DNA of 13,049 nt from Actinomycetales bacterium (GTDB lineage Bacteria > Actinomycetota > Actinomycetes > Actinomycetales > Cellulomonadaceae), in NCBI GenBank assembly GCA_015655615.1, contig JAATES010000196.1:1-13049 (forward strand). The letters are read 5' to 3'. Position 1 is the first letter of the stretch. Every line of letters starts with the position of its first letter. Below the pieces are notes generated by a model. It was given only the letters and a program-made list of their open reading frames with translations. It was not told the DNA's origin and did not search any database. Below are positions 3,618 through 10,934 of this stretch, in pieces. The position numbers were made by a program, and so were the translations under genes.

Positions 3618-4678
3618 CGACGTGCGCGCACCGCGGCCGCCAGCTCCCGCAGCAAGTCGGCTGTCGTATCCCAGTCGATGCACTTGTCCGTCACGGACTG
3701 GCCGTACACCAGGCCGTCCGGTGCGGGCGGCTGGCTCCCTGCCACGAGGAAGCTCTCCAGCATGACCCCGAAGATGCCCTGATTGCCAGCGGCGATCGAC
3801 GCGGCGAGCTCTCGGGCGACCTCTGCCTGGCGCACCTCGGACTTGCCCGAGTTGCCGTGGCTGGCGTCAACGACCAGACGCTGCGGAAGTCCCGCGCCGG
3901 CGACGATCTGCAGAGCGTGCGCGATCGAAGCATCGTCGTAGTTGGGGCCGGTCGCGCCGCCGCGCAGGATGACGTGACAATCCGGGTTGCCCGCGGTCTC
4001 GACCGCGGCAGCGCGCCCCTGCGCATCGATCCCGAAGAAGACGTGCGAGCTGGCAGCGGTGATGCACCCGTCCACCGCAGCTTGCACGCTGCCCTCAGTC
4101 GCGTTCTTGAAGCCGACGGGCATCGACAATCCGGAGGCGAGCTGGCGGTGCGCCTGGCTCTCGGGATTGCGGGCACCGATAGCTCCCCATGACACCGCAT
4201 CGGCGATGTACTGCGGACTGGTCGGTTCGAGGAACTCGCAGGCTGCGGGCAGCCCCGCAGCGAGCACATCGAGCAGCACCCGGCGTGCCAGTCGCAGACC
4301 GCCTTGGATGTCGTGCGATCCGTCCAGGTGCGGATCGTTGATCAGTCCCTTCCACCCGATGGTGGTGCGGGGCTTCTCGAAGTAGACCCGCATCACGATG
4401 ACCAGGTCACGGTCCAGTTCCGGAACCAGTGCGGACAGTCGACGCGCGTAGTCGAGGGCGGCCACCGGGTCATGGATGGAACACGGGCCGACCACCACGA
4501 CCAGGCGGTCGTCCTCGCCGTCGAGCACCGCGCGGATCTCGTTCCGGCTGCGCCGCACCAGGTCCGCACTGCTCGGCGGCAAGGGCTGGTCGGTTCGGAC
4601 GGTCAAGGGAGCCGGAAGCGGCTCCAGCGCACGTACCCGCAGATCGCTGGTCTGGGGTGAATCGACGTGGACGGTCAT
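3608..4678 (-). CDS. aroF: 3-deoxy-7-phosphoheptulonate (DAHP) synthase, type I (AroF/G/H family)
   Basis: It condenses phosphoenolpyruvate and erythrose 4-phosphate to DAHP, the first step of the shikimate pathway to Trp, Tyr and Phe, in the cytoplasm. The 356 residues match the E. coli isozymes (about 350) along the whole length. Visible blocks are VVGPCSIHD (64-70), RVYFEKPRTTIGWKGLINDP (98-117), SWGAIGARNPESQ (163-175), GFKNATEG, CHVILRGG (234-241), VDASHGNSGK (270-279) and GVMLES (304-309). Metal ligands by analogy to AroG are Cys66, His274, Glu308 and Asp331. ATG 4678 is the start; the frame stays open upstream to 4867 but that part shows no homology and overlaps the attenuator. The leader upstream encodes a Trp/Tyr/Phe peptide, indicating control by aromatic amino acid supply. 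Which amino acid inhibits the enzyme cannot be read directly, so the symbol is family-level. Confidence 0.95.
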   Translation of the reverse strand: MTVHVDSPQTSDLRVRALEPLPAPLTVRTDQPLPPSSADLVRRSRNEIRAVLDGEDDRLVVVVGPCSIHDPVAALDYARRLSALVPELDRDLVIVMRVYFEKPRTTIGWKGLINDPHLDGSHDIQGGLRLARRVLLDVLAAGLPAACEFLEPTSPQYIADAVSWGAIGARNPESQAHRQLASGLSMPVGFKNATEGSVQAAVDGCITAASSHVFFGIDAQGRAAAVETAGNPDCHVILRGGATGPNYDDASIAHALQIVAGAGLPQRLVVDASHGNSGKSEVRQAEVARELAASIAAGNQGIFGVMLESFLVAGSQPPAPDGLVYGQSVTDKCIDWDTTADLLRELAAAVRARRQG

Positions 4679-4722
4679 GGGTTCATTCCGTTCGCAGAGT
4701 GGGGAACCAGACGAGCCGATCC

Positions 4723-4743
4723 GCACGGCTTCACAGGAGCCTG
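4723..4743. repeat. Downstream copy of a hairpin-forming direct repeat in the DAHP synthase leader
   Basis: The segment reads GCACGGCTTCACAGGAGCCTG on the plus strand and is nearly identical to 4827-4848, with one substitution and one missing base. It is self-complementary (GGCTTC with GGAGCC, one G-T pair, around ACA). The two copies flank the attenuator terminator. Confidence 0.7.
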
Positions 4744-4759
4744 CCCGTCTGAACGACGA

Positions 4760-4790
4760 AGGGCCCGGACGCAATGGCGTCCAAGGCCCT
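4760..4790 (-). terminator. Attenuator terminator hairpin in the DAHP synthase leader
   Basis: On the minus strand AGGGCC (4790-4785) pairs with GGCCCT (4765-4760), and inside it GGACGC pairs with GCGTCC around the loop CATT. The only interruptions are an unpaired TT and one G. The following bases are TCGTCGTTC, only partly T-rich. It lies 22 nt after the leader peptide stop and 82 nt before the DAHP synthase start, where an attenuator terminator should be. Confidence 0.65.
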
Positions 4791-4792
4791 GT

Positions 4793-4846
4793 GGCTCCAG
4801 GTGGAAGGTTGGTCAGGCGCGCGCCTGCACGGCTCCACCAGGAGCC
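4793..4846 (-). promoter_or_regulatory. Alternative-pairing region of the aromatic attenuator
   Basis: On the minus strand, segment 1 (GGCTCCTGGTGG, 4846-4835), inside the leader peptide gene, can pair with segment 2 (CCACCTGGAGCC, 4804-4793) in 11 of 12 positions. Segment 1 can instead close a local hairpin, GGCTCC with GGAGCC (4846-4841 / 4836-4831) around TGGT. The two folds exclude each other, and a ribosome moving past the Trp-Tyr-Phe codons would cover segment 1. Segment 2 also carries GGAGCC, which can pair with GGCTCC at 4741-4736 downstream of the terminator stem, a possible antiterminator closure. Which fold favours read-through is not certain from inspection. Confidence 0.5.
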
Positions 4847-4890
4847 TGCATAAAGCGCAGATACCAACGGGTTCCAGTCACGACAATCAT
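4813..4890 (-). CDS. Leader peptide with Trp-Tyr and Phe codons (aromatic attenuator)
   Basis: This small reading frame encodes 25 residues: MIVVTGTRWYLRF, then MQAPGGAVQARA. All three aromatic amino acids, the end products of the DAHP synthase pathway, occur within five codons: TGG TAT CTG CGC TTT (4866-4852). TAT and TTT are uncommon choices in such GC-rich DNA, which would make the ribosome more sensitive to charged tRNA supply. The stop TGA (4815-4813) is followed by a terminator-like hairpin and then the DAHP synthase gene. No strong Shine-Dalgarno precedes ATG 4890. A -10-like TAGCAT overlaps that ATG and lies 7 nt before an in-frame GTG at 4881, so a leaderless 22-residue peptide starting at GTG is an alternative. 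The regulatory role is inferred from codon content and layout, as for classical trp-type leader peptides. Confidence 0.75.
   Translation of the reverse strand: MIVVTGTRWYLRFMQAPGGAVQARA
4827..4848. repeat. Upstream copy of the hairpin-forming direct repeat
   Basis: This copy reads GCACGGCTCC, ACCA, GGAGCCTG on the plus strand, with a perfect 6-bp stem and a 4-nt loop. It lies within the leader peptide gene just after the Phe codon. Arms of this copy can pair with arms of the copy at 4723-4743, giving folds that enclose the terminator. Confidence 0.7.
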
Positions 4891-4894
4891 GCTA
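4889..4894 (-). promoter_or_regulatory. Putative -10 box for the DAHP synthase leader transcript
   Basis: TAGCAT on the minus strand (4894-4889) fits the TANNNT consensus. No -35 match is seen at 16-18 nt upstream, where the sequence is the foot of the preceding terminator hairpin. If used, transcription would start near GTG 4881. Confidence 0.35.
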
Positions 4895-4914
4895 CACCAA
4901 CCCTGGGAACAGCG

Positions 4915-4952
4915 GCTCGGGGTGGGAAGGGGTCACCCCTCCCACCCCGAGC
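4915..4952 (-). terminator. Strong 17-bp hairpin terminator after the glycosidase gene
   Basis: Arms GCTCGGGGTGGGAAGGGG (4915-4932) and CCCCTCCCACCCCGAGC (4936-4952) pair over 17 bp with one bulged base and a 3-nt loop. It lies 34 nt after the glycosidase stop and before the DAHP synthase leader, so it separates the two units. It has no T-run, which is common in GC-rich actinobacteria. Confidence 0.7.
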
Positions 4953-4964
4953 GCGTCCTGCTGA

Positions 4965-4988
4965 GTGACTCAGTGACTCAGTGACTCA
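4965..4988. repeat. Three tandem copies of GTGACTCA at the glycosidase stop codon
   Basis: Perfect 8-bp repeats lie at 4965-4972, 4973-4980 and 4981-4988. The last copy includes the glycosidase stop (TGA on the minus strand, 4988-4986). The tract can also fold through GCTGAGT (4990-4984) and ACTCAGC (4968-4962 region). Confidence 0.9.
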
Positions 4989-7900
4989 GCGGCGGACCTT
5001 CACCGTGACCTTCTTGCTCACGGACGTCAGCCCCGCATTGCCCGTGAACGTCACCTTGACCTTGTGCTTGCCCACCCGCTTGCTCAGGTGGATCTTGACC
5101 TTCTTCGACCCGGCCGCGCCGACCTTGACCGTGGCCACCGTCCGCTTGCCGTCCTTGATCCTGACGACTCCGGAACGGCTCAGCCCGCTGGGCGCCGAGA
5201 CCGCGACCTTGACCGTGAGCTTCTTGCCGCGCTTGACCGACTTCTTCGCCTTCGCCTTCACGGCGGAGGCGGCTTTCGTCACCCCGACCCGAACCTGGCC
5301 GTTGGCGGCACTGACCTCACTGCTTCCCTGGTAGGCGGCCTGCACGGTGTGCGATCCAGCCGTCGTGAAGGCAGGCAGCGTCACGGTGGCGCGTCCACCG
5401 GCACCCAGTCTGACGGTCGCAAGAGTCTTGCCGGACTCGGACAGTGTGACCGTGCCCGTCGGGACGACCCCCGTCGCCTTGACGACCACCGTCGCCACCG
5501 ATGCGGTGCCGGCGACCACGGATGGCCGTGACGTGGTCACGGTGAGCTGCGGAGCCGCCTTGGTCACCGTCAGCGTCCGGGGATCCGAGGCGGAGGGCTC
5601 CCAGCGTGGGTCGGACTCCGGGTAGCGCGCCGTGAGGTGATGCGCTCCCACGGAGAGCGTCGCGGGCAGCGCAACCGTCACAGCCCCATCCACCAGCGCC
5701 CCCGAGGCGATGACGGCCGACCCATCGAGGATCTCGACGGTGCCACTCGGCTTCGCGGTCCCCGATCCCGCAGCCACTGCCACAGCGGCCTGAACCGGAG
5801 CCGCGCCGCGAGTCTGGGTGGCCGCGCTCAAGGTCAGCGTGGTCGTGGTGGTGGTCGTGACAGTCAGGGCGACTGGCACGGCCGTCTGCTTGCCATCGGC
5901 ATCGGTGACCGTCACGGTGAAGGAGTAGCTCCCCGGCTCCGTCAGGGTTCCGGTCAAGTGACCTCCGGTCGTCAGCCCAAGGCCTGCGGGCAGGGTCCCT
6001 GAAGTGACCGCGAAGCTGACGGGGCTATGCCCGCCACTCGCCGCAAGCTGCTGGTCCACAGGGCTTCCGGCCACGATGGGCTCTGCGCCCAGGTCGGTGA
6101 TCGCGATGTCCGTGGCCCGGAAGCCGATCCAATCGAGGTTCACCCGTCCGTTGTCGCCCGCGTCCCACTGCAGCGTGAGCGCCCCCGGGCTACCTGTGAG
6201 GTCGACACCGGGTACGGTGACCTCCGACCACGAATCCCAGCTTCCAGTCGGCGGGAAGGCGACCTGGCCGACCTTGTCACTGCCGCTGTACAACGACAAC
6301 GTGCGGTTGTCGCCGTAGCCATTGGCGTAGCGGATGACCACGGAACCCGGCTGCGAGGCACTCGTGGCCTTGCCGACCTGGAAGGCCACGGAGTCGCCTT
6401 GATCCCACATACGGCCCGCGAAATCGCCTCCGCTGGCACCAGCGTGCGCGTCGCCACCACGGTAGGTGTTGGTGAAGACCGCGTCCTCGGCCTCGATCTT
6501 CCAGCCGTCAGGGCATCCTTGCAGCTCAGTCGTTCCCGCGGAGACCAGGCACTGGTCGGTCGCATCAGGGGTGCCGTCGCTGTCGTAATCCGCTGTGCCG
6601 TCCGCACCGGTGAGGGTGATCACCACGGAGTGGCTTCCGGTGAGGTCGGAAGGAATCACCGCGTCTGCCAGCGCCGCACCGTCGAGCGACACGGCGGAGA
6701 CCTCGTTCCCTGCACCACGCAGCGTGATGTCGAGTGTGGCCTGACGATACGGCAGACCGGTGATCGTGGCGTCACCCCAGCCCGCCGGGAGCGTCGGCGT
6801 CAGGGTCATGCCCTCGGTCGTCAATCCGACCCCGAACACGCCGTTGAGGATCATGCGCAGGTAGCCGCTGGCCGACCAGGTCTGGTCGTCCCGGGGCGAG
6901 TTCAGCGAGCCCGTCTGCCACCCGCCGTCGGGCTCGCCCGTGATCGAGTTGTAGATCTCCGAGAAGTCCCCTGACCCGCGCTGCAGCAGCGACAGGTTCA
7001 GGATCTCGTCAGAGAGCTGTTCCTGACCGCCGGCAGTCGCCGCCGCAGCGCCCCAGAAGCTCTGGACCATCGGCCAGATCGAGTTGTTGTGCCGCCCCTG
7101 CTTGGTGTCGGAATAGCGGGAGAATGCAGGCCACACGTCGGTGACACCCCACGGGGAGCTCTGGACCGAGGCGAGGACCTCATCGGCCCGGGCTCCGTCG
7201 GCAATGCCGAACTGCAGCGCGAAGGCGATGCCCGCACCCTCCTGATAGTTCTCCAGGGTGTAGTTCTCGGCAGAGTCGCCATCCGTGCCGGTCTTCACCA
7301 GGGTGTAGCCGTACTGATGTGTCGAGTCGTTCCACAGATGGGCGTTGATGGCGGTCTTGATCGAGGCAGCCTCGTCCTGGAAGCCGCTGACCGTTCCGGC
7401 GTCCGCGCCAAGCCGCTCGGCCATGGCCGCAGTGAGCTGGTAGGCCTGGTAGTACAGCGCGTTCGTGCTGAGCGCCAGCTGGGTCCGAGCCCTCGGGTAC
7501 GACGTCCCGCTGCCCCCATCGATGAAGCTGCCGTGCGACTCTGTTCCGGCAATCGACTCCGGGTACCCGGCGATGCCGTCGTTGAAGAACGACGGGCCTT
7601 GGAACAGCCCGACTCTCGCGTTGAAGTCCCGTTCCCGCCGCGCGTTCAAGGTGTTGACCGCCGTGGTGTAGGCCCGCCCGAGGAATTCGTCGTCGCCGGT
7701 GACCAGGTACTGGTTCCATGCGGCGACGATCCATACCACCTGATCCCACCACTGCGCCTCCGACTCCTGGCCGACGTCGTGCTGCTGCACGATGAGGGAA
7801 TCCTCCCCCGCCTCTTTGGTGACGACCGCCCACAACGTGTTGGATGCCACATCAGGGGCGAGCAGGCTCCCCGCATTCCAGGAGTTGACGGAAGCATCCC

Positions 7901-8207
7901 GGGTCCACGGCAATGCATAAAAACCACCGGCACGGAAGAAAGTCCCTGGATCTGACTTCAGGAATCCGGTCGAATTAAACTTCGCCTCGTAAGGGACGTT
8001 GTTGGTCACCAACAGGTTCTTGAGTGCCTCTGCGTACGAGCTGCCGATGAGGCGGTCGACCTCTGGGTTGGCGAAGGAGACGGTGGGATTTGCCGCCGAG
8101 GCCGTGGTCACGGTCGCCGCGCTCGCGCTTCCCGCCGGGACAAGCGTGGCGAGGACGAGTGCGCCGATGGCCGCTGCCGCCCAGCACCTATTCGCTCGAT
8201 CAGTCAT
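4986..8207 (-). CDS. Secreted multidomain glycosidase: six-hairpin catalytic domain, CBM, Ig-like repeats
   Basis: The protein has 1073 residues. A signal peptide (1-31) has positives, a hydrophobic core and cleavage near SASA. Residues about 45-500 look like an (alpha/alpha)6 glycosidase of the GH63/GH37/GH15-like superfamily, with FYALPWTRDASVNSW (97-110), QWWDQVVWIVAAWNQYLVTG (152-171), a WPAFSRY/GRHNNSIWPM block (359-380) and SEIYNSITGEPDGG (416-429). Asp104 and Glu417 are candidate catalytic acids by analogy. A DYDSDGTPDATDQC motif (540-553) resembles a thrombospondin type-3 calcium repeat. Residues 570-697 (IEAED to LDWIGF) look like a CBM6/35-type module, 700-785 like a putative Ig domain, and 790-970 like Ig-like repeats. 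The Lys-rich C-terminus (980-1073) may bind the wall. Start 8207 is chosen because GGAG lies 7 nt upstream and it begins directly at the signal peptide. It probably cleaves an extracellular carbohydrate, but family and substrate are not established. Confidence 0.85.
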   Translation of the reverse strand: MTDRANRCWAAAAIGALVLATLVPAGSASAATVTTASAANPTVSFANPEVDRLIGSSYAEALKNLLVTNNVPYEAKFNSTGFLKSDPGTFFRAGGFYALPWTRDASVNSWNAGSLLAPDVASNTLWAVVTKEAGEDSLIVQQHDVGQESEAQWWDQVVWIVAAWNQYLVTGDDEFLGRAYTTAVNTLNARRERDFNARVGLFQGPSFFNDGIAGYPESIAGTESHGSFIDGGSGTSYPRARTQLALSTNALYYQAYQLTAAMAERLGADAGTVSGFQDEAASIKTAINAHLWNDSTHQYGYTLVKTGTDGDSAENYTLENYQEGAGIAFALQFGIADGARADEVLASVQSSPWGVTDVWPAFSRYSDTKQGRHNNSIWPMVQSFWGAAAATAGGQEQLSDEILNLSLLQRGSGDFSEIYNSITGEPDGGWQTGSLNSPRDDQTWSASGYLRMILNGVFGVGLTTEGMTLTPTLPAGWGDATITGLPYRQATLDITLRGAGNEVSAVSLDGAALADAVIPSDLTGSHSVVITLTGADGTADYDSDGTPDATDQCLVSAGTTELQGCPDGWKIEAEDAVFTNTYRGGDAHAGASGGDFAGRMWDQGDSVAFQVGKATSASQPGSVVIRYANGYGDNRTLSLYSGSDKVGQVAFPPTGSWDSWSEVTVPGVDLTGSPGALTLQWDAGDNGRVNLDWIGFRATDIAITDLGAEPIVAGSPVDQQLAASGGHSPVSFAVTSGTLPAGLGLTTGGHLTGTLTEPGSYSFTVTVTDADGKQTAVPVALTVTTTTTTTLTLSAATQTRGAAPVQAAVAVAAGSGTAKPSGTVEILDGSAVIASGALVDGAVTVALPATLSVGAHHLTARYPESDPRWEPSASDPRTLTVTKAAPQLTVTTSRPSVVAGTASVATVVVKATGVVPTGTVTLSESGKTLATVRLGAGGRATVTLPAFTTAGSHTVQAAYQGSSEVSAANGQVRVGVTKAASAVKAKAKKSVKRGKKLTVKVAVSAPSGLSRSGVVRIKDGKRTVATVKVGAAGSKKVKIHLSKRVGKHKVKVTFTGNAGLTSVSKKVTVKVRR

Positions 8208-8371
8208 GTGAGTGCTCCGATGTGAGATCCAGTGGTGCGTCATCCCCTCAGCAGCATTGCCTCAGTCGGGGGATCGAGCACATTAGGAAGGTTGGACCCG
8301 CAGTCACCCTTATCGCGGCACTGACAGCCAATGTCGGCCCACGAGGAGGAAAGACGTACGTTAAGTCCCCC

Positions 8372-8457: not shown

Positions 8458-8459
<2 letters not shown>
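8441..8459 (-). terminator. Weak hairpin at the end of asd
   Basis: TTCAG and CTGAA form a 5-bp stem with a CTCC loop right at the asd stop codon, followed by AATTAAGTTTG on the minus strand. It is short and only moderately convincing. Confidence 0.3.
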
Positions 8460-9549
<1,090 letters not shown>

Positions 9550-9611
9550 TTACCTTATTCGTGGCTGTGGTGACTGGAACGTCTCGCCGGATCGACGGTG
9601 AGGACCGATGG

Positions 9612-10130
9612 TCAGCGGCCCGTTCCACCGTAGATGACCGCGTCTCCTGACGCGTCGAGCGCGAAGGCTGTGTGCACGGCCCGGACCGCGTCATCGAGCG
9701 TGTCGATCCGCGTGACCACCGAGATGCGGATCTCCGAGGTCGAGATCATCTCGATGTTGATGCCCGCATCGCGCAGTGCACCGAAGAGCCGGGCAGAGAC
9801 CCCGGGACTCGAGCGCATCCCCGCTCCGATCAGTGACAACTTGCCGATCTGGTCATCGAACTTGAGCTCATCGAAGCCGATCTCCTGCCGGCTGTTCGTC
9901 AGCACCTCGAGCGTTGCCGGCGCATCAGCGGCCGGGAGCGTGAAGGAGATGTCCGTCAGGCCGGTCTGAGCGGCCGAAACGTTCTGGACGATCATGTCGA
10001 GGTTGGCGCCTGCCTGCGCCACGATCTCGAAGAGCCGTGCCGCCGTGCCAGGGACATCGGGGAGCCCCACCACGGTGATCTTCGCTTCGCTGCGGTCGTG
10101 AGCGACTCCGGTGATGATCGGAGCTTCCAT
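9612..10130 (-). CDS. lysC: Probable aspartate kinase beta subunit from an internal in-frame start in lysC
   Basis: Met269 of LysC (ATG at 10130) is preceded by the purine-rich GAGGAGGAC (about 10143-10135), a Shine-Dalgarno match at good spacing. Translation from here gives 172 residues covering only the two ACT domains. In Corynebacterium glutamicum and Bacillus, lysC is known to yield such a beta subunit from an internal start, forming an alpha2beta2 enzyme, and the length agrees with the corynebacterial one as I remember it. Use of this start is inferred from the site. Confidence 0.6.
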
Positions 10131-10934
10131 GCTGTCCTCCTCGTTGCCGGTGGAATCGCTGGGAACATCCTCTGGCAGCAGGCCAGGAATCGTGCGGCCG
10201 GGAACATCGGTGACCAGGGTTCCGACACGCCCGGAGAACGACGACCTCACATGGATCGGGACGTCATAGCGCCGGCCGTACTCGACACAGCGCAAGGCGA
10301 GGACCTTGGCGCCGCTGGCTGCCATCTCCAGCATCTCCTCGTAGCTGATGCGCTGGACCTGGCGGGCTGCCGGGACAATGCGCGGATCTGCGGTGAAGAC
10401 GCCGTCCACATCCGTGTAGATCTCGCACACGTCGGCGCCCAGTGCGGCCGCGAGCGCCACGGCGGTCGTGTCCGAGCCTCCCCGACCCAATGTGGTCACG
10501 TCGTTGGTCTCCTGGTTGACGCCTTGGAAACCGGCCACGATCGCGACGTGTCCCTTGTCCAGGGAGAGCCTGATGCGGCTGGGGGTCACATCGATGATCC
10601 TGGCCTTGCCGTAGGCGGCATCGGTGATGACACCCGCCTGCTGGCCGGTGTAGGACTTCGCCTTCACGCCCAGGGAGTCGATGGCCATGGCGAGCAAGGA
10701 CATCGAGATCCGCTCCCCGGCTGTCAGCAGGATGTCCATCTCCCGGCGCGGAGCCTTATGGCTGAGCTCGTTCGCCAGATCGATGAGCTCATCGGTGGTG
10801 TCGCCCATCGCGGAGACCACCACGACGACGTCGTTGCCCGCCTGGCTGGTCTGAGCGATACGTCTCGCGACTCGCCGGATGCTGGGAGCGTCGCTGACGG
10901 AGGAGCCGCCGTACTTCTGGACGATGAGGGCCAC
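9612..10934 (-). CDS. lysC: Aspartate kinase, alpha subunit (LysC)
   Basis: It phosphorylates aspartate, the committed step of the aspartate family. The protein has 440 residues. The kinase domain starts with [11 protein letters not shown] (2-12), followed by [10 protein letters not shown] (41-50), LTAGERIS (70-77), [15 protein letters not shown] (148-162) and [15 protein letters not shown] (171-185). Two ACT domains fill about 280-440, including [10 protein letters not shown] (314-323) and STSEIRISV near the C-terminus, the lysine/threonine feedback region. By my remembered alignment, the Corynebacterium positions Ser301 and Thr311 correspond to Ser320 and Ser330 here. GTG 10934 is the start, with GGAG 6 nt upstream. 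The linker between kinase and ACT domains (about 247-268) seems longer than in Corynebacterium and contains an internal start for a beta subunit. asd follows at 71 nt. Confidence 0.97.

Follow-up and report, generated by a model that had tools for sequence, protein, structure and literature searches.

A conserved, attenuator-like leader with aromatic amino acid codons upstream of type I DAHP synthase genes in actinobacteria

The window, by which we mean the whole stretch of 13,049 nucleotides that was analysed, contains a type I DAHP synthase gene on its minus strand (Table 1). The encoded protein scored 470.8 bits against the NCBIfam model TIGR00034 (aroFGH), for which the cut-off is 173.2, which bears out the gene assignment made in a preliminary description of this DNA. 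Upstream of the gene, on the same strand, there is a short frame that contains the residues R-W-Y-L-R-F, and 137 nt separate the first base of its stop codon from the gene. The next gene upstream is glycosidase-like and is located at 4986-8243. It encodes a protein of 1085 amino acids that contains Ig-like domains, a weakly matching alpha-L-rhamnosidase-type hairpin domain and a stretch resembling CBM6 that stays below cut-off. An 8-base unit, GAGTCACT, is present in tandem copies at 4960-4988 (minus strand), directly at the stop codon of this gene. Between the gene and the leader there is also a GC-rich hairpin (GCTCGGGGTGGGAGGGG/CCCCTTCCCACCCCGAGC, 4915-4952) without a U-tract, which is perhaps the end of the upstream gene's transcript. 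Further away, at 8458-10934, the genes for aspartate-semialdehyde dehydrogenase and aspartate kinase adjoin each other and represent another amino acid entry point in the window. A search of the window against Rfam at the gathering score gave no leader or riboswitch family, only a tRNA. At E-values up to 10, the region 4560-5010 matched only microRNA-type and viral families, over the hairpin upstream of the leader, and a simple promoter and terminator scan called neither on either strand of 4600-5010.

Table 1. Positions in the window of the DAHP synthase gene and of the elements of its leader, with the basis for each
Feature	Position	Strand	Basis
Type I DAHP synthase (aroF/G/H type), 356 aa	3608..4678	-	NCBIfam TIGR00034 and NF009395 above cut-off
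C, GGCTCCTG, candidate alternative partner of B downstream of T	4734..4741	-	Weak to moderate
Imperfect U-tract, TTCGTCGTT, the first T of which also closes hairpin T	4752..4760	-	U enrichment after T in leaders
T, terminator-like hairpin, 13 pairs, -23.5 kcal/mol	4760..4790	-	Compensatory changes; T5:T3 native better than swapped (0/2000)
B, TCCACCTGGAGCC, pairs with A and in folds also with C	4793..4805	-	A:B duplex evidence
S1b, ACCAAC, beginning with the last base of the stop codon	4808..4813	-	As for S1a
Leader frame from GTG, 22 codons, MTGTRWYLRFMQAPGGAVQARA, probably leaderless	4813..4881	-	Leader in 30/30 fetched related loci including the window; start choice by inference
A, GGCTCCTGGTGGA, in which GGCTCC pairs locally with GGAGCC (4836-4831), or A with B	4834..4846	-	A:B duplex evidence
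Control codons TGG TAT CTG CGC TTT	4852..4866	-	Aromatic core conserved; U-ending Tyr and Phe codons against gene codon usage
S1a, GTTGGT over the Arg-Trp-Tyr codons, pairs with ACCAAC (4813-4808)	4863..4868	-	Compensatory changes; native better than swapped (0/2000 permutations)
-10-like element TAGCAT	4889..4894	-	Sequence; TANNNT spacing in relatives; no -35 identified

A protein search of 59 related genomes, including the window's own, gave matches in 32 genomes at 35 places, and the leader is present in all 30 loci that were fetched from these places, the window included. The leaders in the fetched loci contain R-W-Y-W-R-F or near variants such as R-W-Y-L-R-F, R-W-Y-R-F, R-G-Y-W-R-F and R-Y-W-F. 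An RNA model built from them matched 44 of the 396 genomes of the order, with six of the matches being only partial. Among 33 actinobacterial loci in named genomes, chosen by their DAHP synthase alone from the best 80 matches listed, the leader was identified in 24. Two of these 24 repeat leaders of the window's own family, which, as grouped here, takes in Puerhibacterium (Promicromonosporaceae in the NCBI taxonomy), and a filter that is not specific to the motif recovered the same 24. The leader-bearing genera among these best 80 matches include Isoptericola, Puerhibacterium, Streptomyces, Dietzia, Williamsia, Mycobacterium, Glycomyces, Tsukamurella, Catellatospora, Nocardia, Rhodococcus, Amycolatopsis, Gordonia, Paractinoplanes and Micromonospora. 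The other nine of the 33 loci lack the leader and belong to relatives of Bifidobacterium (four), Nocardiopsis (two), Streptosporangiales-type bacteria (two) and Gryllotalpicola. In one of the two Streptosporangiales-type records (L075, Streptosporangiaceae), the leader motif is present at about position 1310-1400 without a stop codon at the usual place, and the frame runs on.

A class-wide RNA model gave matches at 50 places in 49 of 394 genomes, and each of the best 30 of these 50 matches precedes a DAHP synthase. Two of the 30 were among the loci compared above, and the others are referred to here as the 28 later loci. In 12 of the 28 (the R-R-Y-(P/R/S)-Y-F type), the aromatic core contains no Trp, and in nine Trp is missing from the whole frame. 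The leaders without Trp in the core are placed before the same gene (L153-L155, L159-L163, L166-L168 and L170). The comparisons below are mostly based on a set of 69 distinct leaders, which excludes 12 repeat loci dropped by hand, two further loci that were identical to others and seven proteobacterial leaders. The filter behind this set demands Trp/Tyr-type pairs, so that the presence of W and Y in 69 of 69 leaders is by construction. The preliminary description had proposed that the RWYLRF-type codons and the stems be looked for in relatives; in this comparison the codons are kept, and the leader hairpin and the hairpin T covary.

The 25-codon frame starting with ATG that was originally described is present at 4890-4813 on the minus strand, but the leader probably starts at the in-frame GTG at 4881 instead. 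The -10-like element TAGCAT (4894-4889) overlaps the ATG at 4890 and ends 7 nt before this GTG. In 62 of the 69 leaders, the window included, a TANNNT element is located with its end 6-8 nt from the start of the leader, counted as that of the shortest fitting frame, and a Shine-Dalgarno-like word precedes the start in only two of the 69. The same spacing holds in 17 of the 28 later loci. Based on the TANNNT spacing and the rarity of Shine-Dalgarno-like words, we read the leader as 22 codons that are probably translated from the first base of the transcript.

The aromatic residues of the leaders are encoded in an unusual manner. In the 69 leaders, TAT is used 69 times and TAC three times for Tyr, and TTT 68 times and TTC 12 times for Phe, while the corresponding ratios in the adjoining DAHP synthase genes are 8:364 and 16:416. 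The 28 later loci show the same bias in their leader codons, with TAT:TAC at 38:3 and TTT:TTC at 28:0. TAT and TTT had been singled out in the preliminary description as standing out from their context, and the U-ending codons in the leaders do run against the usage in the DAHP synthase genes. The third bases of the Tyr and Phe codons are unpaired in the consensus fold, and either slow wobble decoding or the need to keep this stretch open is therefore a possible reason for the choice of U-ending codons.

The region folds at -102.1 kcal/mol (z -3.56), with none of 200 shuffles as good. In the family alignment of 30 sequences, the leader hairpin consists of GUUGGU:ACCAAC, then GGCG:CGCC, then the hairpin formed locally by A, and it folds the control codons onto the surroundings of the stop codon. 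The control codons lie within its 5' arm, with S1a over the Arg-Trp-Tyr codons and the next helix over the codons after Tyr. Taken together, the leader hairpin, T and H had 93.2% of their cells paired in these 30 sequences, with 28 double-change cells compared to 5.9 in shuffles (0/500), while slid versions reached at most 46.8% paired. In a structure-free scan of 37 sequences, the top ranks went to T, the leader hairpin stem and the base of the hairpin formed by A.

The two segments that had been noted as complementary, GGCTCCTGGTGG (4846-4835) and CCACCTGGAGCC (4804-4793), match at 11 of 12 positions, and the sequence also contains the stem at 4790-4760 and the local hairpin that competes, as described. 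The corresponding duplex A:B (GGCUCCNGGUGG:CCACCNGGAGCC) is predicted in all 69 leaders, with a mean of -23.0 kcal/mol and -14.4 kcal/mol for the weakest. For swapped A and B, the mean was -20.7 kcal/mol and none of 2000 permutations was as good as the native pairs. The same test gave 7/2000 in the window's family alone and was not significant in the 28 later loci (516/2000). Against shuffled B, the z-score was below -1.5 in 53 of the 69 leaders. Out of 54 leaders listed for alignment, 38 were aligned, and the six core pairs of A:B hold in 35-38 of these 38 sequences. The A:B columns were 86.7% paired, with seven double-change cells compared to 2.4 in shuffles (0/500). In the same alignment, the double-change pairs and the pair types were not above those in shuffles, and slid versions gave as many double-change pairs. 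With the column counts mixed in this way, the support for A:B comes mainly from its near-invariant pairing and the swapped test. For the alternative pairing B:C, the z-score was below -1.5 in 29 of 58 leaders, and the swapped test gave 0/2000 overall and 65/2000 within the window's own family.

In 58 of the 69 leaders, the distance from the end of B to T is at most about 6 nt. The other 11 are counted as being without T or with a doubtful T chosen by the script, and they include L009 and L115, in which a T is visible by eye. Nine leaders of the Rhodococcus, Nocardia and Amycolatopsis type have no T adjoining B. The leaders without T keep A and B, and C forms a local hairpin in them. In the 58 leaders with T, the nine nucleotides that follow the hairpin contain on average 4.34 U compared to 1.08 in the background. 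The T of the window combines a strong stem with a poor U-tract, and the simple scan calls no terminator there. From these comparisons, the leader hairpin, A:B and T appear as the supported structures.

A leader called aroR was reportedly described upstream of aroF in Corynebacterium glutamicum by Neshat et al. in 2014. In the part of the source covered here, aroR is presented as a Phe-Tyr-Phe leader at aroF (PMC4046766), and the covered part of a review states that transcription of the aroF operon was enhanced under Phe limitation and that the availability of Tyr had no effect (PMC11802643, section 7). Among 401 genomes, one locus (L172) is a near match to the 27-base start of aroF, with three mismatches, and was taken as C. 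glutamicum-like. Its aroF leader reads M-F-A-A-R-F-Y-F-M-T-G-S-G-A..., and it has the same A:B and an adjacent T that is followed by TTTTTT. Since L172 shares A:B and T with the window and has the Phe-Tyr-Phe of aroR, we read the leader in the window as a variant of the aroR kind. The window leader and aroR both contain clustered aromatic codons in a short frame upstream of a type I DAHP synthase gene, and L172 resembles the window also in that A is in the frame, B after the stop codon and T next to B. However, aroR and L172 contain Phe-Tyr-Phe and no Trp, and L172 has a clean U6 tract and A in a different frame, whereas the window contains Trp-Tyr-Leu-Arg-Phe and an imperfect U-tract. An attenuator-like leader with codons for all three aromatics is supported. 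The suggestion in the preliminary description that a single leader reading all three amino acids would be a distinctive design is softened, since the layout recurs across the actinobacteria and is present with Phe-Tyr-Phe in the C. glutamicum-like leader. Judged by its sequence, the element is a widespread, attenuator-like variant of the aroR kind with Trp added, and the regulation itself is predicted.

The attenuators of the trp operons in Corynebacterium and Streptomyces, as presented in the part of the survey covered, share with the window a leader peptide, competing hairpins and a GC-rich terminator, but differ in that they contain double or triple Trp codons only and in that a U-tract is reported for all of them (PMC1262725). 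That part of the survey also describes complementary triples that are common to the antiterminator and the terminator, and, in the same part, this 2005 study is noted to have reported that phenylalanine and tyrosine operons in Actinobacteria are not preceded by conserved RNA structures (PMC1262725). The uORFC-13-1 motif upstream of aroF in Acholeplasma, compared here by its description in the covered part of the source, similarly has an upstream frame and a terminator stem before a DAHP synthase gene; it differs in that a run of U codes for Phe, and the motif is reported there only from Acholeplasma and environmental sequences (PMC8632094, section 26). In the openly accessible literature, judged mostly by title and the opening of the abstract, we recognised no description of such a leader outside Corynebacterium.

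The effect of ribosome position was modelled by folding without the RNA that is covered by the ribosome. In the window, this gave 11.9 A:B pairs for a ribosome stalled at Trp or Tyr, 5.3 for a stall at Phe and 5.1 without a ribosome, which suggests that A:B would be a state special to the Trp or Tyr stall in the window. The stall at Phe halves A:B, and Phe may therefore act differently from Trp and Tyr. With the ribosome at the stop codon, B pairs downstream (6.6 pairs); only the downstream RNA was folded in this state, so that A:B is absent by set-up. In the window, the choice of the 3' end affects the value for A:B in the ribosome-free state, which falls to 0.02 of full pairing when the RNA is folded to the gene start, and A:B is predicted without a ribosome in many relatives (mean 0.71). 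In the 58 leaders with T, the probability that T forms was 0.96 without a ribosome, 0.96 with a stalled ribosome and 0.97 with the ribosome at the stop codon. The 5' arm of T (T5) showed less upstream binding in the stalled state (0.14) than at the stop codon (0.39) or without a ribosome (0.61) in the 69 leaders, 11 of which have a doubtful T. A and B share no bases with the core of T. Any effect of A:B on T would thus not be explained by shared bases, with T predicted in every state.

We consider it likely that the conserved leader is a ribosome-mediated attenuator of the aroR kind, by which a shortage of charged Trp-, Tyr- or Phe-tRNA is predicted to increase the number of transcripts that extend into the gene. 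Translation would start at the first base of the transcript, the GTG at 4881. While held up at W, Y or F, a ribosome would sit on the 5' arm of the leader hairpin and melt it, which would allow A to pair with B across the stop codon, while a ribosome that reaches the stop codon would lie between A and B and prevent their pairing. As a working choice, we take A:B to be the ON state and free B, or B:C around T, to be the OFF state; A:B would exclude the downstream pairing B:C, which straddles T. The preliminary description had pointed to the layout of ribosome-mediated attenuation with competing helices. The conserved leader, its codons and hairpins agree with that layout, and A:B does compete with the local hairpin, but no pairing that disrupts the stem of the terminator found support.

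A broader proposal, which we put forward tentatively and regard as possible but doubtful, is that these leaders belong to one class-wide family of attenuators that act on the entry step of aromatic synthesis and whose switch geometry differs from the textbook. Stalling of a ribosome would give rise to A:B over the stop codon, next to a terminator that forms in every case, and the partner of B, either A ahead of the terminator or C behind it, would decide the outcome. The sensor alphabet would be rewritten by lineage (Trp-Tyr-Trp-Phe, Tyr-Trp-Phe, Tyr-Phe-Trp-Phe, Tyr-Tyr-Phe and Phe-Tyr-Phe), with the rare U-ending Tyr and Phe codons kept with few exceptions and sharpening the response.

The recurrence of B:C, the formation of T in all states and the relatives without T, in which A and B are retained and C folds locally, would also fit a leader that uses B:A versus B:C to control the translation of DAHP synthase by hiding its Shine-Dalgarno sequence, or to control Rho-dependent ending, with T as a pause or spacer. 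We find this unlikely, since the U enrichment after T fits an intrinsic terminator, and the predicted access to the Shine-Dalgarno sequence was higher by more than 0.1 equally often in the stalled state (7 of 69 leaders) and in the stop state (7 of 69). Hiding of the Shine-Dalgarno sequence was rejected as the output, as no consistent change in access was seen across the leaders.

In the textbook layout, an attenuator has three alternative helices (1:2, 2:3 and 3:4). Applied to this leader, A:B would be the anti-antiterminator, B would pair with the 5' arm of T when a ribosome masks A, and T would otherwise terminate. B and T5 can indeed pair, with a mean of -8.7 kcal/mol, and a ribosome stalled at Phe, the final aromatic codon, covers some of A. 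However, the native B:T5 pairing was weaker than the swapped in 2000 of 2000 permutations, its mean z-score against shuffled T5 was -0.17, with a value below -1.5 in one of 58 leaders, and A is left free by the Trp or Tyr stalls in the window. The B:T5 antiterminator was rejected as unsupported. It was the only candidate tested, and no antiterminator that shares a strand with T was supported. These results make the classical arrangement improbable.

The conservation of the peptide across several orders could suggest that R-W-Y-W-R-F-x-x-A-P-G-G-A is an arrest peptide, in the manner of TnaC, with a free aromatic amino acid or some other ligand as its signal. However, L172 keeps A in another frame (G-S-G-A instead of A-P-G-G), and another family has the tail A-P-A-V-A or A-P-A-A-A with A:B kept, which indicates that this part is conserved as RNA rather than as peptide. 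An arrest peptide conserved independently of the RNA is disfavoured by these two observations and was rejected, and we hold such a mechanism to be very improbable. That the frame is a small protein gene or a chance frame without a regulatory role is hardly credible, given the association with DAHP synthase in all 30 model matches fetched (the best 30 of 50), the U-ending aromatic codons and the rarity of W, Y and F within six codons, which were found in three of 948 short frames outside the leaders (232,086 strand-bases, 30 loci), or about 0.006 per 450 nt.

How much flows into Phe, Tyr and Trp is determined by DAHP synthase. In the literature covered, an actinobacterial DAHP synthase attenuator is described from one genus, while the element reported here recurs across several orders, mostly with an added Trp codon. 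If the leader is an attenuator of the aroR kind, its natural variants could be used to study the integration of several amino acids by a single leader, to ask whether slow decoding is the reason for the choice of UAU and UUU, and to trace how a stall acts on the terminator when no antiterminator overlaps it. The leader may also serve as a handle for the engineering of aromatic production.

Short frames with aromatic runs are also present upstream of proteobacterial DAHP synthase genes (L102, L113, L123, L130, L131, L137 and L138, and also L106 and L108). The runs, for example FYFWYY, YFWYF and FYFYFY, were seen, among others, in Xanthomonas and Bradyrhizobium and also in Bordetella, and their sequence is unlike that of the actinobacterial leader.
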